64,000 nucleotides of DNA from Comamonas suwonensis (GTDB taxonomy: Bacteria > Pseudomonadota > Gammaproteobacteria > Burkholderiales > Burkholderiaceae_C). Within the stretch, counting starts at the first letter, position 1. Each line of letters starts with the position of its first letter. Location: contig NZ_JABBCQ020000002.1 in NCBI RefSeq assembly GCF_012844455.2, positions 310,001 to 374,000 on the forward strand, given 5' to 3'. Shown here one piece after another: positions 43,276 through 52,979 of the stretch. Below the pieces are notes generated by a model. The model worked only from the letters and a program-made list of their open reading frames with translations, had not been told where the DNA came from and ran no database searches. Made by a program: the position numbers and the translations under genes.

Positions 43276-45195
43276 TCACGCAAGCATAAAGGCCTCAAAG
43301 TACGCGCTCAGCGCGGCGTGATCGCCCAAGGGCAGAACCTGGGCCACATACTGGTCAGGCCGCACGATGACCAGCGCGCCATGCTGACGGTCCACGCCGC
43401 GCATGTCATAGATGTCCTGACCTGCACTCTTTAAATCAGGGCTGAAGACTTTTTCATAGTCAAGCAGACCCAGCTGGCCCTTGCTTGGCAATAGCAGCGC
43501 GGGCAGCTTCTCCAGCGCCACATCGGTATAAGCCTGCGGGAAAATAGCGCGCACATCGAAGATGCTGTCCATGTCCTGCCCTGCTGGCGTGAAGCGGCAC
43601 AGGGGCGATGCAGGATCGGTCTCCAGATAGCGGCACAGCGCCAACAGACCGGATTCAGGTTGATCCAGATCCGCCTGACCTGCAAACGCATACAGACGCC
43701 AGCGACCATCAGCCTTGCCGCAGTGACCCAGATGCACAGGCTTGGCATCCGACACGCGCACTACAGGCGCTGAGTGAAAACGCATCCCCACCGTAAAGCC
43801 GGTAGCCAGCGCTTGGTTCGCAGCCTCGCCCGTCAGCACCGAGGGTGCGTAATGCGTTCCCACGCCTGCGGTAAAGCGGCCATGCTGCTCAAAATATTTC
43901 TGGAACTCTTTGGGGTCCACGCCACCCTCGCCGCCTTCCTTGGCGCGGTCGCTGAACATCTGGGCCCACTCGCGGTCAAAGTCAATCAGTTGCTGGGCAA
44001 CGACCTGACGCTCAGATGAGTAAGTGTGCAGCAGCTCAGGCACGCATTGCTTGCGCAGCACGGCGGCCAGCTTCCAGCCCAGATTGAAGGTGTCTTGCAT
44101 GGAGAAGTTCATGCCCTGCCCAGCCTTAGGGCTGTGGGTGTGGCAGGCATCGCCAGCGATAAACACATGAGGCAGCGGCGAATTTTCGGTGGCGACGGCA
44201 TCCGTCACATCGTCGTACTTGTCGCAGATGCGCTGGCCGATTTCATACACCGACCACCAGGGCACATTCTTCACATCCAGCTTGTAGGGGTGAATGACGC
44301 GCTGTGCGGTTTCAATCAACTGCTCCACCGTGATCTGACGATGGGCCACACGCTCGTCCACGCCCAGCTTGTCCATCTCGACATAAAAACGCACCAGATG
44401 GCCGCCTTCACGCGGAATGATGAGCACATTGCCGTGCTCGGACTGAATGGCAGCCTTGAAGCGAATGTCGGGGAAATCGGTAACCGCCAGAACGTCCATC
44501 ACACCCCATGCGTGGTTGGCCGAATCGCCCACCAGCTGGCGTCCCATGGCTCGGCGCACATTGCTGCGCGCACCATCGCAGCCCACCACATAGCGGGCCT
44601 GCACGGTTTCGATCTGCCCGGCGTGCTGTGGATCAACGCGCTCCAGCGTCACGGTGACGGGGTAATCGGCAGCGCTGTGGTCCACCTTCACATCCACCAC
44701 GCGGCGGGCGTAGTGAGGCTCCATCTTGCTGGGCGAATTGCGCATGCGCTCCAGATAGAAGTCATGAATACGTGCCTGATTCAGGATGACGTGCGGGTAC
44801 TCCGACAGACCATCTTCCGTGTCCTGCACACGGCCGTGGCGGGCGATGTTGCCGGGTGTCTTGTCATCAGGCTTCCAGAATGTGACATCGTTGATCCAGC
44901 AGGCTTCCTTGATCACCTGGTCCGCAAAGTCAAAAGCCTCGAACATCTCCATGGTGCGGCAGGCAATACCGTCGGCCTGGCCCAACTGCATGGGACCTTC
45001 CTTCTGCTCGACGATGCAGGTATGAATGTCCGGGAATGCCGCCAGCTGCGCGGCCAGCGTCAGGCCTGCAGGACCACAACCCACGATGAGGACATCCACC
45101 TTGGCGGGTACGGTTTCGGTATGGGCATGTGCCAGTGGAGAGGCCTCAGCGACCAGCGGGCTGCCGGGACGAAAACCATTGAGATGAAATTGCAT
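43276..45195 (-). CDS. mobA: 3-hydroxybenzoate 4-monooxygenase
   Basis: 639 residues from 45195 (MQFHLNGFRPGSPLVAEASP), with AGAGG 6 bases upstream. This start and length agree with MobA of Comamonas testosteroni as I remember it; an in-frame ATG 60 bases earlier lies next to the operators and lacks a ribosome site. Class A FAD hydroxylase: DVLIVGCGPAGLTLAAQL, the VVGCDGARSNVRRAMG motif and GDACHTHSPKAGQGMNFSMQ, with a thioredoxin-like C-terminal domain (after about 470). Uses NADPH and oxygen to turn 3-hydroxybenzoate into protocatechuate. Ring-cleavage genes are not in the window. Divergent from the MarR gene. Confidence 0.93.
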   Translation of the reverse strand: MQFHLNGFRPGSPLVAEASPLAHAHTETVPAKVDVLIVGCGPAGLTLAAQLAAFPDIHTCIVEQKEGPMQLGQADGIACRTMEMFEAFDFADQVIKEACWINDVTFWKPDDKTPGNIARHGRVQDTEDGLSEYPHVILNQARIHDFYLERMRNSPSKMEPHYARRVVDVKVDHSAADYPVTVTLERVDPQHAGQIETVQARYVVGCDGARSNVRRAMGRQLVGDSANHAWGVMDVLAVTDFPDIRFKAAIQSEHGNVLIIPREGGHLVRFYVEMDKLGVDERVAHRQITVEQLIETAQRVIHPYKLDVKNVPWWSVYEIGQRICDKYDDVTDAVATENSPLPHVFIAGDACHTHSPKAGQGMNFSMQDTFNLGWKLAAVLRKQCVPELLHTYSSERQVVAQQLIDFDREWAQMFSDRAKEGGEGGVDPKEFQKYFEQHGRFTAGVGTHYAPSVLTGEAANQALATGFTVGMRFHSAPVVRVSDAKPVHLGHCGKADGRWRLYAFAGQADLDQPESGLLALCRYLETDPASPLCRFTPAGQDMDSIFDVRAIFPQAYTDVALEKLPALLLPSKGQLGLLDYEKVFSPDLKSAGQDIYDMRGVDRQHGALVIVRPDQYVAQVLPLGDHAALSAYFEAFMLA

Positions 45196-45263
45196 GAAGG
45201 CCTCTAGTGCGTCAGGTGAATCTTGTGCGGAAAGCGCTGGCGGACTGCTTTCCATTATCTTAG

Positions 45264-45303
45264 ATATGCATGCATATAGTATGCATACACACCAGATGTA
45301 TGC
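45264..45303. promoter_or_regulatory. MarR (MobR) operator region
   Basis: Perfect palindromes ATATGCATGCATAT (45264-45277) and GTATGCATAC (45279-45288), with a further half-site TGTATGC at about 45298. They lie between divergent mobA and mobR, about 70 bases from the mobA start and 60 from the mobR start, where a MarR repressor would block both promoters. Confidence 0.75.
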
Positions 45304-45349
45304 AGCGTATTATCTGTACATCAAAACGCAAACAAAATAAGGGTTAACC

Positions 45350-45877
45350 ATGAATCAAGCAGACTCTCGGGAGACGGTTACCATCCGTGACAACAACCAA
45401 CCCGTCTTCCCTCGACTGGAGGTTGAGACCTTTCCCGGCCATGGCATTCGCCGCTTGCAACAAGTGGCTGTGGCCATGTTTACGCAGGCCACCGATGCAT
45501 GGGGCATCACGCCTCTGCAATTTGCTGTGCTGCAAAAACTGGTGCACCTGCCAGGCATTGATCAGCGCACGCTGAGTGTGGAAGTGGGCTTTGACAAAGC
45601 CACTATTGGCGGCGTCATCGACCGCCTGGAAGTACGCGGCCTTTTGCAGCGCCAGCAAACCGCCAAAGACCGCCGGGTGCGCCTGCTCTCGCTCACCGCT
45701 GATGGAGAAGCCCTGCTGACCAGCGCTGGCCCAGCCGTGCTGCAAGCCCAGCAGCGCATGCTGGACCCACTGAGCGACGAAGAACGGGAGACTTTTGCGC
45801 AGCTGATGCGCAAAGTGATTGAACACCATGAGCAGGGCGGGCCAGAGGCCAACACAGCGGCTCGTGATGTAGCCTGA
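45350..45877 (+). CDS. mobR: MarR-family regulator MobR
   Basis: 175 residues. Winged helix at about 50-115 (WGITPLQFAVLQKLVHLPGI, then TIGGVIDRLEVRGLLQRQQT and DRRVRLLSLTADGEALL), flanked by helices for dimerisation. Divergent from mobA with palindromes between, the same arrangement as the C. testosteroni mobRA pair, in which MobR represses mobA and 3-hydroxybenzoate releases it (from memory). The symbol is assigned on context and partner identity. Confidence 0.85.
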   Translation: MNQADSRETVTIRDNNQPVFPRLEVETFPGHGIRRLQQVAVAMFTQATDAWGITPLQFAVLQKLVHLPGIDQRTLSVEVGFDKATIGGVIDRLEVRGLLQRQQTAKDRRVRLLSLTADGEALLTSAGPAVLQAQQRMLDPLSDEERETFAQLMRKVIEHHEQGGPEANTAARDVA

Positions 45878-46016: not shown

Positions 46017-46060
46017 GCCAAAGGGCTGCCCACAGGCAGCCCTTTGGCATTTTCTCTTTT
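46017..46060 (+). terminator. Strong terminator downstream of mobR
   Basis: Perfect 14-base stem GCCAAAGGGCTGCC (46017-46030), loop CACA, GGCAGCCCTTTGGC (46035-46048), then ATTTTCTCTTTT on the plus strand. The 140 bases between mobR and the hairpin hold no convincing gene. Confidence 0.9.
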
Positions 46061-46075
46061 GTTTCTCGTCCCACA

Positions 46076-46951
46076 TCAAACCGGTTTGCGCCCGGCTCGC
46101 ATCTCCGCGGCAATGCTTTGCAGCACGTCAGGCAAATCGATCACGCTGCGCACCACGTAATGCGCCCCTGCTTTTTTAAGCTTGGCCTCGGCAGAAGCCA
46201 CGCGGGCGTTGACCTCATCCTCTGGCGCATTGGCAAATTCCTGCAGGCTATAGCCCACTTCGTTGCCCGACAGGCTAAGCCCCACGGTCCACATGCCGGC
46301 ATTCAGGCCTTCCGCAATTCCAGGAACGGTGTCGTCCACCTTCACACAGGCACGCACATCGCTGACGGCCAGAGCCAGCACATTGGACAGCGCCATATAT
46401 GGGCCGGGGCGGCCACCAGCTTCCAGTTCATCGCCAGCCACCACATAGTCGGGCTGCACACCGGCTGCTGCGGCCTGCGGCAACAACTGGTTGAGAACTT
46501 CACGCGGATAGCCGGAGCAGGAGCCAATCTTCAGTCCCTGATCGCGCAGCCATTGCAGGGTCTGCACCGCGCCGTCGATAGGCGCAGAAAACTCGCCCAC
46601 CTTGGCAATCTGCATGGGCATGAAGCGGGCGTAGATGGCATCCACATCCTCATTGCCCGGGCTGTGGCCAAAGCGGGTCTGCCACTGGGCGGCAATACTC
46701 TCGTCCTGCAGCAACTGGTAGATATGGTCCCATTTGGACAGCCCCATAGGCCCGCGCGCCTGCGCCAGCGTGATGGAGACACCGAAGCTGGCAAAGGCTT
46801 CCACAAAAATCTGTGTGGGCGCAAGCGAGCCAAAGTCCACCAGCGTGCCGGCCCAGTCAAAGATGACGGCTTGCAGCGGCGACAGGTCGCCAGTGGCGGT
46901 AGTGGAGGCCTTGGAAACGGCTTGCTCTTCGGTATGGGTGGTGGTGTTCAT
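46076..46951 (-). CDS. phnX: Phosphonoacetaldehyde hydrolase
   Basis: 291 residues from 46951 (MNTTTHTEEQAVSK). HAD-family enzyme: catalytic Asp motif VIFDWAGTLVDFGSLAP (about 28-44), the cap-domain Lys region ARGPMGLSKWDHIYQLL (Schiff-base lysine in PhnX), GSCSGYPREVLNQLLP and VKVDDTVPGIAEGLNAGMW. Cleaves phosphonoacetaldehyde to acetaldehyde and phosphate. Last gene of the phosphonate run, 16 bases after the alcohol dehydrogenase. The extended N-terminus (about 25 residues, Thr/Ser-rich) is longer than usual; a later start is possible. Confidence 0.94.
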   Translation of the reverse strand: MNTTTHTEEQAVSKASTTATGDLSPLQAVIFDWAGTLVDFGSLAPTQIFVEAFASFGVSITLAQARGPMGLSKWDHIYQLLQDESIAAQWQTRFGHSPGNEDVDAIYARFMPMQIAKVGEFSAPIDGAVQTLQWLRDQGLKIGSCSGYPREVLNQLLPQAAAAGVQPDYVVAGDELEAGGRPGPYMALSNVLALAVSDVRACVKVDDTVPGIAEGLNAGMWTVGLSLSGNEVGYSLQEFANAPEDEVNARVASAEAKLKKAGAHYVVRSVIDLPDVLQSIAAEMRAGRKPV

Positions 46952-46967
46952 GATCAAACCTGGGCTT

Positions 46968-48059
46968 TCAAATTGAAATACTGCGAATAAAGTTACGACC
47001 GCGCGGGCCGCTGGCGGCCTTGGTCACCATGGTCTGCCAGTCAGCGGAGGCGATGCCGTAATGCGCGGGGTCCGTCGCCACACCCAGCTGCTGCAAAAAC
47101 TGCTGCAGGCGCTGCACGGCAACGGCAGGTGCCATGGCATCAAAGATGGAGAGCAGCGCGGCGTCCGCCACGGCATCTGCGCCCAGCGCCATCTCCAGCA
47201 CCAGTGGCAAGCTGAATGAGCAGGCAAGACCATGCGGCACGCCATGCTGCAGCGTGATGTCGTACGACAGCGAATGCGCCAGCGCCGTCTTGGTATTGGA
47301 AAAAGCCAGCCCGGCCAGCAGCGCGGCCTCAGCCATATCGCTGCGCAGTTGTGGGTTGTGCAAGTCCCGCATCAGCGCAGGCAATGTGGCCAGCGTGCGG
47401 CGGGCCGACTGCACGGCCAGCGCCATCGATATGGAGTTGCGGTTCACATTCCAGATGGACTCCAGTGCATGCGAGAGCGCATCCAGCCCAGAGGCCAGCG
47501 TCGCGCCCGCCGGCAGGCTGAGCATCAAGTCGGCATCAATCACCGCCGCCTCGGGCCAGGTGCAATGCTGGTGCAGCGAGTACTTCTGCCCCCCCGCCTG
47601 ATCCCAGATCGTGGCCCAGGGCGTCACTTCGCTCCCCGTGCCTGCCGTGGTGGGAATGGCAATCAAATGCTTGTGTGGCGCTGGTGGCAATTGCGCTCCC
47701 TGCTTCAAAATCGAGAGCAAATCCGAGAATTGCCCGGAGTCTGTGGCGCACAGCAAGGCCTTGGCTGAGTCAATGACGCTGCCGCCGCCCAGTGCCACGA
47801 TAACGGGCACCTCGGCATGATCGCGCTGCACCATCTCGTACAAAGGAGCCAGCCATTGCACATCGGGGTTGGGCGCAATGCTGTCGATCACGCCGCGCAG
47901 CTGACTGCACAGAAGGGCACGCACACGCTGCACCAGCCCCAGGCCATCGGCCTCGGGAAAAGTGACCAGCAGGCAGCTGCGGCCAGCCAGCAAGGCAGGC
48001 AGTTGGCTCAGGCTGTTGCGGCCCACATGGGTGTGCACGGGGTTGTGATAGGTCCACAC
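46968..48059 (-). CDS. Iron-containing alcohol dehydrogenase, phosphonoacetaldehyde reductase-like
   Basis: 363 residues with a GTG start at 48059 (MWTYHNPVHTHVGRNSL), AAGG 8 bases upstream. Group III metal-dependent dehydrogenase: NAD site ALGGGSVIDSAKAL, TAGTGSEVTPWATI, and iron ligands in ALSHALESIWN and QHGVPHGLACSFSLP. Very similar proteins are annotated as phosphonoacetaldehyde reductase (PhpC-like), which in biosynthesis makes 2-hydroxyethylphosphonate. Here, beside phnX and an importer and with no phnW, the reverse reaction, oxidation of 2-hydroxyethylphosphonate, is a reasonable idea but unproven. Disposal of the acetaldehyde made by PhnX is an alternative. Confidence 0.85.
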   Translation of the reverse strand: MWTYHNPVHTHVGRNSLSQLPALLAGRSCLLVTFPEADGLGLVQRVRALLCSQLRGVIDSIAPNPDVQWLAPLYEMVQRDHAEVPVIVALGGGSVIDSAKALLCATDSGQFSDLLSILKQGAQLPPAPHKHLIAIPTTAGTGSEVTPWATIWDQAGGQKYSLHQHCTWPEAAVIDADLMLSLPAGATLASGLDALSHALESIWNVNRNSISMALAVQSARRTLATLPALMRDLHNPQLRSDMAEAALLAGLAFSNTKTALAHSLSYDITLQHGVPHGLACSFSLPLVLEMALGADAVADAALLSIFDAMAPAVAVQRLQQFLQQLGVATDPAHYGIASADWQTMVTKAASGPRGRNFIRSISI

Positions 48060-48110
48060 GAGAAGTACCTTTTGCGTTTTTTTGAGCGAAATCTACCCCT
48101 CACGCTTGTG

Positions 48111-48131
48111 TATCAAGCGCAAGCAGCTCAT
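48111..48131. repeat. Dispersed short repeat, copy 3
   Basis: TATCAAGCGCAAGCAGC followed by TCAT, in the 120-base gap between phnE and the alcohol dehydrogenase. Matches 929-950 and 9621-9641. Confidence 0.6.
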
Positions 48132-48179
48132 GTTTTGGGAGTGCTTAAGACAGCCGTGCGCAGTTGCACTGCCGCTGAA

Positions 48180-49019
48180 TCAGTGGCGCGTGCCCTGCTG
48201 AATGCGGCTGCGCAGCCAGTTGGAGACCATGTCGGCGGCAATCACCATTACCGTGATGACGATGATGCAGGTCGCCGTTTCTTGATAGCGAAAGAGCTTG
48301 AGGCTGCTGACCAGCTCAAAACCCAGACCACCCGCGCCCACCATGCCCAGCACGGTGGCTGAACGCAGATTGACTTCGAAGCGGTAGAGCACCACGGCAA
48401 TCCACGCGGTGATCACCTGCGGCACCACGCCAAAGGCAATGATCTGCAACTGCGTGGCACCGGCACTGCGCAGGGCTTGCAGCGGGCCTTCGTCGATTTC
48501 CTCGATCGCCTCGGCGAAGAACTTGGCCAGCATGCCCATGCCGTGCAGGGCCAGCGCCAGCACACCGGGGAAAGGTCCAAGGCCCACAGCCGAGACAAAG
48601 ACCAGCGCCAGAATCAGCTCGTTGATGCTGCGCACCACGTTGAGAAACTGCCGCGTGATGCGACGCAGCCAGTGCCAGCTGTGCAAATTGCTGGCCGCGA
48701 TAAAGGACAGAGGCAGCGCCAGAATCACGCTCAGCAACGTACCCCAGACGGCAATCTGAATCGTCTCCAGCGCCGGTGCCCACAGGCGCGGCAACATACT
48801 CCAGTCCGGTGGCACAGAGCGCGAGAAAAAGTCGCCAATCTGCGGCATGCCGCCCGCCAGCTCGCCCCAGCTCATCTGTGCGCCCTCTGCGCTCCAGTGC
48901 AGAACCCAGACAATCGCCAGAGCCAGCCCTGCATACCCCAGCCAGCCGCTGATACCTGCGGGGCGTGCCGCCGTCCATTGCCAGCGATCCGGCGTGTTTT
49001 TCAAGCTGGGACTGTTCAT
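48180..49019 (-). CDS. phnE: Phosphonate ABC transporter permease
   Basis: 279 residues from 49019 (MNSPSLKNTPDRWQWTAARP). Six membrane helices; the EAA-like loop for contact with the ATPase reads LALHGMGMLAKFFAEAIEEI. GMVGAGGLGFELVSSLKLF near the end is characteristic of PhnE. The ATG overlaps the phnC TGA by four bases. Imports phosphonates with PhnC and PhnD. Confidence 0.94.
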   Translation of the reverse strand: MNSPSLKNTPDRWQWTAARPAGISGWLGYAGLALAIVWVLHWSAEGAQMSWGELAGGMPQIGDFFSRSVPPDWSMLPRLWAPALETIQIAVWGTLLSVILALPLSFIAASNLHSWHWLRRITRQFLNVVRSINELILALVFVSAVGLGPFPGVLALALHGMGMLAKFFAEAIEEIDEGPLQALRSAGATQLQIIAFGVVPQVITAWIAVVLYRFEVNLRSATVLGMVGAGGLGFELVSSLKLFRYQETATCIIVITVMVIAADMVSNWLRSRIQQGTRH

Positions 49020-49852
49020 TGCAAACCTCTTGCAGTGGCTACGGCAGACATGGGCTTGGGCAACCATGCGCCTGGCGCGGTCAGCACCATGCCCGGCTCT
49101 GCTTGTGCCTGCGGCGGGTGCGGCATATCGGTGCTGTAGATAGCGTTGAGCGCATCTTCATTGAGTAGCTCAGGCGCTCCATCAAACACCATGCGCCCTT
49201 GCGACAGACCGACGATGCGATCGCCAAACTCCTTGGCGTAATCAACCTGATGCAGATTGCAGACCACGGCAATGCCCAGCTCACGCGTGGCCTCGCGCAG
49301 ATACTGCAGCACGCTGCGGGCGGTCTTGGGGTCCAGACTGGCGACGGGCTCGTCCGCCAGAATCACCTGCGGCTGCTGGGCCAGGGCCCGTGCTATGCCA
49401 ACGCGCTGCATCTGCCCGCCCGACAGCGCTTCGGTGCGCTCATCAGCCTTGTGGGCCAGGCCCACGCGCTGCAGGCATGCATCGGCCAGCGCGATATCGC
49501 TTTGCCTGAACAGCTGCAGCACCGATGCCAGCGTGCCCACCTGCCCCAGTCGCCCGGTCAGCACGTTCTTGCGCACCGACAGGCGCTGTACCAGGTTGTG
49601 GTGCTGAAACACCATGGCCACATGGCGGGCCAGTTCGCGGCGCGAATGCTTTTGCATCAGGTCAATGCCCCCCACCTGCAGCTGGCCGCTGTCAGGCTGG
49701 TTCAGGCCATTCATGCAGCGCAGCAAGGTGGACTTGCCTGCGCCGGACAAGCCCAGCATCACCACAAACTCACCCGCCTTCACATCCATGTCGATACCGT
49801 GCAGCACGTGGTTGCTGCCATAGCTCTTGCGCAGATTGCGGATGGTGATCAT
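49016..49852 (-). CDS. phnC: Phosphonate ABC transporter ATP-binding protein
   Basis: 278 residues. Walker A LGLSGAGKSTLLRCM, signature LSGGQMQRVGIARALAQQP, Walker B VILADEPVASLDP and the switch His in VVCNLHQVDYAKEFGD, all intact. Residues after about 235 form a short Ala/Pro-rich extension. Overlaps phnD and phnE by four bases on either side, so the three are translationally coupled. Confidence 0.95.
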   Translation of the reverse strand: MITIRNLRKSYGSNHVLHGIDMDVKAGEFVVMLGLSGAGKSTLLRCMNGLNQPDSGQLQVGGIDLMQKHSRRELARHVAMVFQHHNLVQRLSVRKNVLTGRLGQVGTLASVLQLFRQSDIALADACLQRVGLAHKADERTEALSGGQMQRVGIARALAQQPQVILADEPVASLDPKTARSVLQYLREATRELGIAVVCNLHQVDYAKEFGDRIVGLSQGRMVFDGAPELLNEDALNAIYSTDMPHPPQAQAEPGMVLTAPGAWLPKPMSAVATARGLQ

Positions 49853-50724
49853 TTCATCTTCCCCAGGTCCAGATTCAGGGCCTTGGCGGTGTTGCGCACC
49901 ACGTCGTAGGCCTGATCGTTGGTCGGAGCAAAGCCGTTCAGCTCGCCGCGGTCCCCCCAGGGCAGGCCCTTGATCTCGGCCAGCGCGGCGGCTACTTTTT
50001 TCTTCGTGGCTTCGTCGAGGTTCTTGCGCCAGGCCATGGGAGATTCAGGGATGGGCTGCGAGCGCCAGATGATCTGGAAGTCCTCAGCCTTCACATGCCC
50101 TTTGGCAACGGCGGTCTGAAAGATGGGGTCGGCCACAGCTGCTGCATCCACCTTGCCATTGGCCACGGCCATGATGCTGGCGTCATGCGAACCCGAAAAG
50201 ATCACGCGTGAGAAGTATTTGTCGGTGTCAACCCCATCACCCTTGAGTCCAGCCTTGGGGAACAAATGACCCGATGCCGAGCTGGGATCGACAAACGCAA
50301 AGGTCTTGCCCTGCAGCGCAGCCACACTGGTCAGACCCTTGTCTTTCTTGCTGATGATCAGACTCTGGTACGAGCTTTTGCCCGACTTCTTGGCCACAGG
50401 AATGGCAAAGGCCTCGGCCTGCGCCAGCTGGCTGGCCAGCACATAGGAGAACGGGCCGAAATATGCCACATCGATCTTGCCCGAGCGCATGGCTTCGATC
50501 ACGCCGTTGTAGTCATTCGCCACAAAGGGCTTGACCTTCATGCCCGTCTTCGCAGCCAGTTGCTCCATCACCTGCTGACTGGCACGCATCATGGCCTGCG
50601 CATCTTCAGAGGGGATCAGGCCCACGCGCAGCTCGGTGAGCTGCTGCGCTATGACGCCGGTGGTGGCTGCCAGGGTCAGGCTGGCGACTGCGGCTTTCAG
50701 CCAGGTTTTGCGGGTCATCGTCAT
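49849..50724 (-). CDS. phnD: Phosphonate ABC transporter substrate-binding protein
   Basis: 291 residues from 50724 (MTMTRKTWLKAAVASLTLAA), with AAAGGA 8 bases upstream; two ATGs further up overlap that ribosome site. Signal peptide cleaved near VIAQQ. PhnD family: LRVGLIPSEDAQAMMRASQ, GKIDVAYFGPFSYVLA and FAFVDPSSASGHLFPKAGL. First gene of the leftward phosphonate operon and divergent from the LysR regulator. Confidence 0.94.
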   Translation of the reverse strand: MTMTRKTWLKAAVASLTLAATTGVIAQQLTELRVGLIPSEDAQAMMRASQQVMEQLAAKTGMKVKPFVANDYNGVIEAMRSGKIDVAYFGPFSYVLASQLAQAEAFAIPVAKKSGKSSYQSLIISKKDKGLTSVAALQGKTFAFVDPSSASGHLFPKAGLKGDGVDTDKYFSRVIFSGSHDASIMAVANGKVDAAAVADPIFQTAVAKGHVKAEDFQIIWRSQPIPESPMAWRKNLDEATKKKVAAALAEIKGLPWGDRGELNGFAPTNDQAYDVVRNTAKALNLDLGKMK

Positions 50725-50819
50725 GAGGTTCATCCTTTGCATGTGCGTCTGTAGAGTGCAGCTCTCGCTGGAGCCATCGCACCGTCATTGCAGTGCGTTG
50801 ATGCAAATGTTAGGGACGA

Positions 50820-50836
50820 CATATGACTGTCATGTG
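50820..50836. promoter_or_regulatory. Candidate LysR operator between phnD and its regulator
   Basis: CATATGAC-T-GTCATGTG: 8-base arms with one mismatch, containing the exact dyad ATGACTGTCAT (50823-50833). Located 59 bases before the LysR start and about 96 before phnD. Confidence 0.5.
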
Positions 50837-50894
50837 AAGGTTTCAAAATCAGTTTTGACAGCTTCTATAGATTCAACCTTGAGATGACATTTGC

Positions 50895-51800
50895 ATGAGC
50901 ACCGCCCGCTATCGCGCCTTTATCTCCGTCGCACAGCAAGGCAGCCTGAGCGCTGCAGCCCGCAGCCTGGGAGTGAGCCAGCCCACGGTCTCCAGCCAGA
51001 TCGCCACACTGGAGCGGCAAAGCCAGATCGAGCTATTTCACCGTCAGGGCTATCGCATGACGCTCACCAGCGCTGGTCACAAACTGATGGCGCTGGCGCA
51101 GAAGCTGCTGGCGCTGGAGTCAGAAACCGAGTTCTTTCTGCGTGACTCGGGCCAGCTCAATCAGGGCGAACTCAAGATCGGGGCCGTGGGACCCTTTCAT
51201 GTGATTGAAATGGTGGCCAGCTACCGCGCGCGCCACCCACAGCTACAGCTGTCTATCCGCATGGGCAACTCTCAGCAAGTACTGCAGGATCTGGAGAACT
51301 ACACCACCGACGTGTCTGTACTGGCCGGTTTCTACGACAGGCCCGAGCTACTGGCCCTCGAATATGCGCGCCACGCCATCATCTTGTTTGCCCATGTCGA
51401 TCACCCGCTGGCGCGGCGCGAGCAGATTGAAATTCATGAGCTGCGAGGCCAGCCCCTGCTGCTGCGTGAGCAGGGCTCCACCACACGCTCTGCACTGGAA
51501 AAAGTTCTGCAAGAAGCGGGGATTGAGCCTCGCACTTCTCTAGAGATCGGCAGCCGTGAAGCCATTCGTGAAGCCGTGGCGCGTGGTCTGGGCGTGGGTA
51601 CCGTGTCCGAAGCCGAGTTCATTGCCGACCCGCGCTTCAAACCCGTGCGCATTGCGGGCGATCCAGCCAGAACCACCACCTATGTGTATTGCATGAAAGA
51701 GCGCAGCGAAAGCCTGCTGGTACGCTCTTTTCTGAATGCCATAGAACGCCCGAAAAGCCCCCAGACAACAGACCAGTGCGTCTTTGCTCCAAAACCCTGA
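50895..51800 (+). CDS. LysR-family regulator of phosphonate catabolism
   Basis: 301 residues. HTH at about 5-60 (FISVAQQGSLSAAARSLGVS, QPTVSSQIATLERQSQIELF), followed by a LysR effector domain (ELKIGAVGPFHVIEMVASYR; REQGSTTRSALEKVLQEAGI). Sequence and position fit the LysR subgroup found beside 2-aminoethylphosphonate genes. Divergent from phnD, so it probably activates the phnDCE-ADH-phnX run in response to a phosphonate or its aldehyde. Related PhnR proteins are activators in Burkholderia and Pseudomonas. Confidence 0.87.
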   Translation: MSTARYRAFISVAQQGSLSAAARSLGVSQPTVSSQIATLERQSQIELFHRQGYRMTLTSAGHKLMALAQKLLALESETEFFLRDSGQLNQGELKIGAVGPFHVIEMVASYRARHPQLQLSIRMGNSQQVLQDLENYTTDVSVLAGFYDRPELLALEYARHAIILFAHVDHPLARREQIEIHELRGQPLLLREQGSTTRSALEKVLQEAGIEPRTSLEIGSREAIREAVARGLGVGTVSEAEFIADPRFKPVRIAGDPARTTTYVYCMKERSESLLVRSFLNAIERPKSPQTTDQCVFAPKP

Positions 51801-51983
51801 CCCGTCTGAAGCCGTCAAATGCTGGCGTCATTCGTCAAGCTGTATCTGAGGGCTCCATCTGAGAATTTTTGACATCGTGTGACGTGGCTTGCATCGCTGC
51901 GACACCGGCGCACCCGGAACCATTCCTCAAGCATTTGGGTGTACGGTTTTTTGGGAAACAGACCAGAAAAAACGGAGACAACG

Positions 51984-52979
51984 ATGAGCAAGACAATTCA
52001 ATGGCAAGCAGTCGCGCTGGGGGCCTGCCTGAGTGTGATGGGCGTTGCCACAAGCGTTTCAGCCCATGCACAAACGCCAGCATGGCCCAGCAAACCCATT
52101 CGAATGATCGTGGGCGGGCCAGCAGGCGGCAATGCCGACTCTCTCGCTCGCCTGCTGGCAGACGGCATGCAAAAGCAGTTGGGAAAGCCCGTCATTGTGG
52201 AATCCAAACCCGGCGCTGCCGGTGTGCTGGCCGTGACGGACTTGCTCAATAACGGCAAAGATGCGCACACGTTTTTGTTGATCCAGGGCGGCATCGTCAG
52301 TGAAACGCCGCTGGCCTACAAGGTCAGCTATCAGCCCTTCAAAGACCTGAAGCCGCTGGCCCAGCTCAGCCGTAACGGCTTGGTGCTCATCGCCAACAAA
52401 GACTTCCCTGCCAGCAATCTGCAGCAGCTCAGCGTCTATGGAAAAAAGCAGTCCGAAGGTCTGGACTTTGCCTCCTATGCTGCGGGCATGCGCGGTCATA
52501 CCTCCGGCATGCTGATGGGGCAGTTGATGGGCGTCAAGATGAAGCACCTGGGCTACAAGGGCTCGCCGCCTGCTCTGACCGATCTCATGGGGGGTCATAT
52601 CCCGTTGATGATGGATGGACTCACCACCTCCCTGCCCCTGATAAAGGCTGGCAAAGTCAAGGCTCTGGCCGTGAACTACCCCAACCGTATGGAGCAATTG
52701 CCCGACGTCCCAACCTTCAAGGAGCTGGGCTACCCACAGTTATCAGAAGTGAGCTGGTTTGGCGTCTGGTCTCGCCCTGATACGCCTGCCGACGTGCAGG
52801 CCAAGGTCCGTGAAATTGCACTGCAGTACTTCAAGCAGCCTCAGGTAGCCGCTAAGGTCAGGGACATGGGAATGGAATCTGGCACCGATGCAACGTCTGA
52901 AGCCCTGATGAGCGAGCTGCAAAAGGCTTATCAGCGCCAGCAGGCACTGCTCAAGTCGATTGACTATCAGCCCCAGTAA
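51984..52979 (+). CDS. Bug/TctC-family periplasmic binding protein, orphan
   Basis: 331 residues from ATG 51984 (MSKTIQWQAVALGACLSVMG), with GGAG 6 bases upstream. Signal peptide cleaved after SAHAQ. Mature part: WPSKPIRMIVGGPAGGNADS, the family N-terminus, then KPVIVESKPGAAGVLAVTDL and YPNRMEQLPDVPTFKELGYP. Binds an unknown small acid. No membrane subunits or enzyme genes are next to it. It follows the phosphonate LysR gene by 183 bases and is convergent with an AraC regulator. These proteins exist in dozens of paralogues in Comamonas and relatives. Confidence 0.88.
   Translation: MSKTIQWQAVALGACLSVMGVATSVSAHAQTPAWPSKPIRMIVGGPAGGNADSLARLLADGMQKQLGKPVIVESKPGAAGVLAVTDLLNNGKDAHTFLLIQGGIVSETPLAYKVSYQPFKDLKPLAQLSRNGLVLIANKDFPASNLQQLSVYGKKQSEGLDFASYAAGMRGHTSGMLMGQLMGVKMKHLGYKGSPPALTDLMGGHIPLMMDGLTTSLPLIKAGKVKALAVNYPNRMEQLPDVPTFKELGYPQLSEVSWFGVWSRPDTPADVQAKVREIALQYFKQPQVAAKVRDMGMESGTDATSEALMSELQKAYQRQQALLKSIDYQPQ

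Follow-up and report, generated by a model that had tools for sequence, protein, structure and literature searches.

Which compound does a phosphonate operon serve when the usual 2-aminoethylphosphonate aminotransferase gene, phnW, is not part of it? The question is raised by a group of genes in a 64,000-nucleotide stretch of Comamonas suwonensis DNA (contig NZ_JABBCQ020000002.1, positions 310,001 to 374,000; the window, below). Here phnD, phnC, phnE, a gene for an iron-type alcohol dehydrogenase (ADH) and phnX form a single leftward run at 46076-50742, all on the minus strand, with a LysR-type regulator gene divergent from it. In our opinion the operon quite probably makes 2-hydroxyethylphosphonate (HEP) available to the cell as a source of phosphorus. 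PhnDCE would import HEP, the ADH would oxidise it with NAD+ to phosphonoacetaldehyde (PAA), and PhnX would hydrolyse PAA to acetaldehyde and phosphate. This hydrolysis would pull forward an oxidation that is unfavourable, and the run would probably be induced by the LysR protein. The substrate, the direction of the reaction, the NAD+ cofactor and the induction are what we infer.

The layout itself had been given in the initial annotation, including the lack of phnW, and the reading frames and their NCBIfam identities bear it out. All five operon genes score above the curated NCBIfam cut-offs: phnX, for PAA hydrolase (46076-46957, minus strand; TIGR01422, 333.7 bits, cut-off 220); the ADH, our proposed NAD-dependent HEP dehydrogenase (46968-48059, minus; TIGR03405 Phn_Fe-ADH/PsrA, 468.0, cut-off 423.7); phnE, for the permease of the phosphonate ABC transporter (48180-49067, minus; TIGR01097, 307.7, cut-off 216.7); phnC, for its ATPase (49016-49852, minus; TIGR02315, 304.0, cut-off 266.1); and phnD, for a periplasmic binding protein with an altered cap (49849-50742, minus; TIGR03431, 276.5, cut-off 261.1). 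The LysR-type gene (50895-51800, plus) reaches 326.7 bits with TIGR03339 phn_lysR, the LysR family associated with aminoethylphosphonate catabolism, slightly below the cut-off of 341.1. Within the run the gaps are 10 and 120 bases and elsewhere the genes overlap; the phnE frame overlaps phnC by 52 bases, and its true start may lie inside the annotated frame. The closest solved relatives of PhnX are PAA hydrolases (e.g. 3iru, 2iof and 1rql), and its motifs IFDWAGT and PMGLSKWDHI align with the phosphonatase-like chain 3iru; the Schiff-base lysine and the aspartate nucleophile are both in place. As the name PsrA indicates, NCBI already treats the ADH as a family of its own, so its link with phosphonates is known to curators.

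If the ADH feeds PhnX, the other sources of PAA should be considered in the same genome (4.72 Mb in 67 contigs, 100% complete). A phnW gene elsewhere in it would have been the obvious alternative, as the initial annotation had pointed out, and the whole genome holds no PhnW (TIGR03301) above cut-off, the best score being 83.7 bits against 360.8. Nor is there a match at E 1e-60 to HpnW, an FAD amine oxidase, among the 21 best-scoring candidates taken per genome. The carbon-phosphorus (C-P) lyase protein PhnJ (PF06007) was not found in this one genome, while the E. coli control was detected, and phosphoenolpyruvate (PEP) mutase is above cut-off neither here nor in 27 other genomes (0/28). A single copy of PhnX is above cut-off, the one beside the ADH. 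Since PhnW, HpnW, PhnJ and PEP mutase are all missing above cut-off and there is one PhnX, this genome has no evident maker of PAA other than the ADH; and since there is no PEP mutase, the ADH is not part of phosphonate synthesis there. This genome and four other genomes with the same operon, which likewise lack both amine enzymes, carry the argument for HEP best.

The arrangement is not a chance one, because 12 of 399 genomes from the bacterial family, C. suwonensis included, have an ADH directly beside phnX with phnDCE (Type A, below), and so does a plasmid of Comamonas antarctica (LysR//phnDCE-psrA-phnX). TIGR03405 as such is above cut-off in 26 of the 399 genomes, at 29 places, and around all of them we mapped marker genes over 9.6 to 19 kb (13 kb for C. 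suwonensis), using tblastn with preset thresholds. The partner of the ADH at these places is PhnX in 14, PhnY (PAA dehydrogenase) with PhnA (phosphonoacetate hydrolase) in 13, PhnA only in one, at a contig end, and none in one; PhnW accompanies it nowhere and HpnW at three. PhnA was verified by its family model at one locus (L093; 629.7, cut-off 407.6) and PhnY at four (L093, L089, L096 and L170; 793.5-878.3, cut-off 635.7), and the other assignments rest on similarity to these. PhnX is also present at three more places in the family, where the ADH is either below cut-off (two) or split (one), and two of the three have HpnW; the below-cut-off loci mapped were those of G133 and G332, while G092 and G369 (each beside phnX and HpnW) and G161 were left out.

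Outside the family we mapped 22 loci: eight from a wider contig scan, eight plasmids (of nine records) and six genomes of the phylum. The scan gave at least 80 loci, of which L164-L171 were used as orthologues and seven as outgroups (L172, L175, L177, L185, L207, L229 and L230), with two of the other 65 also mapped. At the 22 loci the outlet is PhnX in five, PhnY in seven and none in ten, and PhnW is again absent. The order of genes varies: LysR//psrA-phnD-phnC-phnE-permease-phnA-phnY in Leisingera thetidis, LysR//psrA-phnA-phnY followed by a major facilitator superfamily (MFS) gene in an Ensifer sp., and phnX, LysR and psrA in Agrobacterium. ADH operons are found in beta-, gamma- and alphaproteobacteria, the marine Leisingera among them. 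An enzyme that pairs with either PhnX or PhnY should make or take PAA, the substrate that these two have in common, and with no amine enzyme alongside, the simplest reading of the gene order would be that the ADH makes PAA from HEP. Oxidation of HEP by the ADH followed by PhnX, which had been proposed from the window alone, is therefore supported both by the lack of phnW and HpnW in the genome and by the sister operons with PhnA and PhnY.

Some genomes hold more than one such gene. In G376 a Type A operon (L110, C1:777871) and an ADH operon with PhnA and PhnY (L092, C1:788862) lie about 11 kb apart, and G215 has three ADHs of this kind in three different contexts. In the Type A operon L266 (G300) the ADH, phnE and LysR matches each come in two pieces, indicating a decaying copy or assembly errors.

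The dehydrogenase itself is informative as to which compounds it handles. In a tree of 64 ADHs (53 from catabolic contexts, five beside phosphonopyruvate decarboxylase, Ppd, and six generic iron-type enzymes; midpoint root, with several long branches and some joins flagged) the 53 catabolic enzymes form one clade (96/98), sister to the group of the five Ppd-linked ones (96/84), and both together are separate from the generic enzymes (100/99). PEP mutase accompanies four of the five, the only ones where it was looked for (the fifth is L172). The sample for PEP mutase consisted of 18 regions from 20 genomes plus G570 (L265), with G592 left out, and with L304 (7.3 kb) left out, an ADH match was present in 4 of the remaining 18 regions. 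The Ppd-linked enzymes are expected to run from PAA to HEP in operons for synthesis. The description of our ADH as PhpC-like, made from the sequence of the window, holds at the level of the family, but the catabolic ADHs are a clade of their own, sister to the synthesis-linked ADHs, which are of the PhpC type by gene context.

The metal ligands D193, H197, H262 and H276 are present in all 53 catabolic ADHs, that of the window included, and so are T258, Y266 and W203 of the pocket, T258 and Y266 being found in all five Ppd-linked enzymes as well. A longer signature (T150, W152, S161, W203, N204, T256, T258, Y266 and T269) occurs in 53/53 catabolic and 5/5 Ppd-linked enzymes and in at most one of the six generic ones, and therefore argues for the same pair of compounds, PAA and HEP, in the first two groups. 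The full pattern R353-G354-x-N356-F357 separates them: it is found in 53/53 catabolic ADHs and in 0/4 PEP-mutase-linked ones, which lack G354. The predicted structure of the window's ADH (pLDDT 91.5, from 14 sequences) has the sulfoacetaldehyde reductase TauF, chain 6jko, as its best match by E-value among solved chains (2.8e-26, TM 0.90, 26% identity), and a sequence search, in which the chain is labelled methanol dehydrogenase, ranks it first too. With NAD+ as cofactor TauF is reported to act on isethionate, which is HEP with a sulfonate in place of the phosphonate; it has no ethanol activity, and loses nearly all activity in the mutants T257A and F265A. The equivalents of T257 and F265 are kept in the window's ADH as T258 and Y266, and a tyrosine at the second position is, in the same account, a natural variant. 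The likeness has its limits: the substrate is a sulfonate and not a phosphonate, and BkTauF was proposed to serve the assimilation of taurine nitrogen. W148 and T258 stand where FucO has N151 and L259, known pocket residues (an offset of one in the numbering is our own). Altogether W148, T150, W152, S161, T258 and Y266 are unlike FucO and most of the six generic enzymes, partly as in TauF and mostly as in the Ppd-linked enzymes.

The binding protein also bears on the ligand. In E. coli PhnD, D205 and E177 are reported to accept hydrogen bonds from the amine of 2-aminoethylphosphonate, with T14 completing the cap (PMC5700983), while PtxB is described as having tyrosine and aspartate at cap positions and a small pocket (PMC5700983, PMC10284923). 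When 42 ADH-linked binding proteins were aligned with five solved chains, the PhnD of the window was found to have serine, proline and serine in place of T14, E177 and D205, so its cap is not of the amine type. At these positions 29 of the 42 proteins have serine or alanine, arginine (proline in three) and serine; seven have T, H and D, and six T, E and D. The full E/D pair is accordingly lacking in 36 of 42, and its distribution follows the amine oxidase: E177 and D205 are kept in 5/5 operons with HpnW and in 1/37 without it (p 7e-6). As the amine-holding acids are replaced here and yet kept wherever HpnW is present, the imported ligand looks to be a non-amine, by these sequences, in most ADH operons without HpnW. 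Among the operons with PhnDCE, one pocket is common to every Type A operon and to most of the PhnY type, which would be expected of importers for a single compound. We also considered a phosphite transporter, the solved chains nearest to the window's PhnD being PtxB-like, and rejected it: the phosphite-type D and Y seen at positions 14 and 205 in 5jvb, 5lv1 and 5o2j are both serine in the window, and the pocket that prevails in ADH operons without HpnW is not of the phosphite type either.

Import need not go through PhnDCE. In other ADH operons the alternative is an MFS protein nearest to the organophosphate antiporters PgtP, GlpT and UhpT, below their cut-offs. The ten PhnW operons of the family that we examined (10 of 21 genomes) have no match to PhnD or PhnE, although two of the ten contigs are shorter than 6 kb, and nine have a distant PhnC-like ATPase only. 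We consider it reasonably likely that these elements make up a widespread modular system for HEP, in which a TIGR03405 ADH would be combined with PhnDCE, mostly with the serine-arginine-serine pocket, or an MFS importer, and with PhnX or PhnY/PhnA.

A phnX match at E 1e-40 is present in 79 of the 399 genomes, 77 of them above cut-off, and the commonest company of PhnX is not PhnW, it is HpnW, which is above cut-off in 61 of the 79 and, by our own reading of the listed coordinates, near phnX in 51 of the 61; phnX with HpnW in place of PhnW has been described (PMC11203657). Neither enzyme is found in 5/12 Type A genomes against 1/67 other phnX genomes (Fisher p 2e-4, although this and the other p-values given here are too small, related sequences not being independent samples). 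Only one of the 12 Type A genomes has PhnW (G018, about 2 Mb from the operon).

Apart from the dependence between genomes just mentioned, a number of observations weigh against the use of HEP as we propose it. PhnW taken alone does not distinguish Type A from other phnX genomes (1/12 against 22/67, p 0.16, not significant). In 8 of the 13 PhnY-type genomes of the family PhnW is above cut-off on another contig, and seven of these eight have no PhnX above cut-off; within about 1.5 kb of nine PhnW genes, that of G018 included, we found no PhnY and PhnA once. Because those PhnW genes have no PhnY nearby and mostly no PhnA, the PhnY and PhnA of the ADH operon may in such genomes also receive amine-derived PAA, and gene content alone may there leave a role as reductase to the ADH. 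PhnW is also above cut-off in four of seven ADH genomes of the phylum; that of G635 lies beyond the mapped stretch, at a distance of about 12 kb from the ADH. No outlet for PAA is nearby at 10 of the 22 outside loci, e.g. in Vibrio pelagius and Variovorax VAI-C, and five mapped operons combine the ADH with HpnW. The pocket is not uniform either. The proteins of the window and of two other operons have proline in place of the usual arginine at position 177; a third class, in which D205 is retained, consists of the seven proteins with T14, H177 and D205; and L169 has an ADH and an amine-type pocket without HpnW, the sole exception to the pocket rule. The case for HEP, finally, rests on sequence and a predicted fold, and it is at this level that the gene identities, the absences, the recurrence, the swap of outlets, the change of the pocket and the kinship with oxidoreductases of the PAA and sulfoacetaldehyde type are established.

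As to the loci concerned, the third class comprises L094, L095, L096, L167, L168, L171 and L246, with two PhnE-like permeases; four of these (L094-L096 and L246) are PhnY-type operons. L169, from an uncultured gammaproteobacterium, reads phnC-phnD-phnE-ADH, and this locus contains neither HpnW nor PhnW, nor an outlet for PAA.

What else could the ADH do? It could be a PAA reductase that makes HEP out of PAA derived from 2-aminoethylphosphonate, with the HEP secreted, used to modify surfaces or formed as overflow. This is the direction expected of its sister enzymes next to Ppd and PEP mutase, a conversion of 2-aminoethylphosphonate to HEP by PhnW and PhpC has been proposed (PMC9381506), and the PhnW genes on other contigs of PhnY-type genomes would provide the aldehyde. 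We nevertheless regard this as improbable. A reductase needs a source of PAA, whereas the mapping places PhnW beside none of the 29 family loci and none of the 22 outside ones, and the C. suwonensis genome has no PhnW and no HpnW above cut-off; moreover, the binding proteins have for the most part lost the full pair of acids that holds an amine. We reject a biosynthetic reductase for these genomes, given that none of the 28 has PEP mutase above cut-off. The ADH could instead reduce the acetaldehyde made by PhnX to ethanol, or be a general alcohol dehydrogenase recruited to the operon. PhnX does yield acetaldehyde, and iron-type ADHs often act on it. Yet scavenging would not explain the 13 family places where the same ADH family stands with PhnY and PhnA, because that route ends in acetate; the pocket is unlike FucO and most generic enzymes, TauF, the nearest solved relative, is inactive on ethanol, and PAA would be left with no source in the C. 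suwonensis genome. An ADH acting only on acetaldehyde or ethanol, which the initial annotation had named as the outcome that would undo its proposal, is thus made unlikely; we reject scavenging as the principal function on account of the PhnA/PhnY operons and hold it to be very improbable.

The operon could also serve another amine or hydroxy phosphonate, with an unrecognised enzyme elsewhere making PAA and the ADH handling a side compound. One such enzyme would be PbfA, a lyase acting on 2-amino-1-hydroxyethylphosphonate; pbfA was seen to be absent from the operon only, no genome-wide search for it having been made. The five operons that combine the ADH with HpnW point the same way, as do FAD enzymes reported with phnX in clusters without phnW (PMC10590968). 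Against this, the operons of the 12 Type A genomes show no feeder gene besides the ADH, and the altered PhnD pocket speaks against an ammonium ligand, so that this explanation too seems to us decidedly improbable. Oxidation of HEP remains the reading that we prefer.

How does the proposed route compare with known ones? PhnX, phosphonate import, LysR control and PAA as intermediate are common to it and the PhnWX pathway for 2-aminoethylphosphonate; the ADH stands here where PhnW stands there, and the PhnW operons examined differ in having no PhnD or PhnE match. The sister ADH operons have the PhnY and PhnA outlet of the PhnWYA pathway without an adjacent PhnW as mapped, while the window uses PhnX. 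The synthesis-type PAA reductases have the same pocket signature and the same pair of compounds, but the opposite direction is expected of them and they are linked to PEP mutase. C-P lyase likewise makes HEP a phosphorus source, though by radical chemistry, and is reported to give ethylene from it (PMC5649143); its PhnJ is missing here. In PbfA, PbfB-D and PbfF the principle is the same, accessory enzymes feeding other phosphonates to PAA, with the difference that their substrates are amines.

The route had been put forward as one not known to be described, and we found no report of hydrolytic HEP use among the matches listed from the open-access literature (40 of 66 in one search), which largely omits subscription journals and preprints. 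The sole relevant record there on a HEP dehydrogenase is a negative one: it is noted that HEP oxidation would feed the PAA pathways, and PbfF, assayed as HEP dehydrogenase, had no activity (PMC12366243). A review (PMC10574752) gave no match for hydroxyethyl or HEP, and psrA together with phosphonate and alcohol dehydrogenase is not found in the open-access literature, although studies outside it may lie behind the name PsrA; papers there with psrA and phosphonate only seem, by their listing, to be unrelated. The closest statement concerns phpC, which has been placed in catabolic operons; pepM is reported to be lacking in 53% of phpC genomes, and it was suggested that these make HEP from 2-aminoethylphosphonate (PMC9381506).

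The region between the divergent LysR gene and phnD contains a conserved stretch at 50806-50886: when the intergenic regions of 11 closer Type A operons are aligned, 27 of the 28 invariant columns (a manual count) lie in it; four more distant ones (L107-L110) were left out. These roughly 80 bases are probably the LysR operator with the promoters, a putative assignment from conservation, and a promoter scan gave no sigma-70 match. At the other end of the run phnX and a MarR gene converge on a hairpin of 14 perfect pairs (46017-46048). Its T-rich tail is on the plus strand only, so it probably terminates transcription of the MarR gene. Divergent from the MarR gene, a phenol 2-monooxygenase gene (43276-45877; NF006144, 1066 bits) adjoins the operon and probably has no tie to it. 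The LysR gene is directly followed, in the same orientation, by a single gene for a TctC-family periplasmic binding protein (51879-52979).

If our reading is true, phosphate would be freed from HEP without C-P lyase and thus without ethylene, acetaldehyde or acetate being formed instead. Database entries that carry the name phosphonoacetaldehyde reductase, or that are taken for phpC of phosphonate synthesis, would then be partly catabolic. The hydrolytic route would have a marker gene of its own, and this would correct surveys that score such ADHs as phosphonate synthesis.

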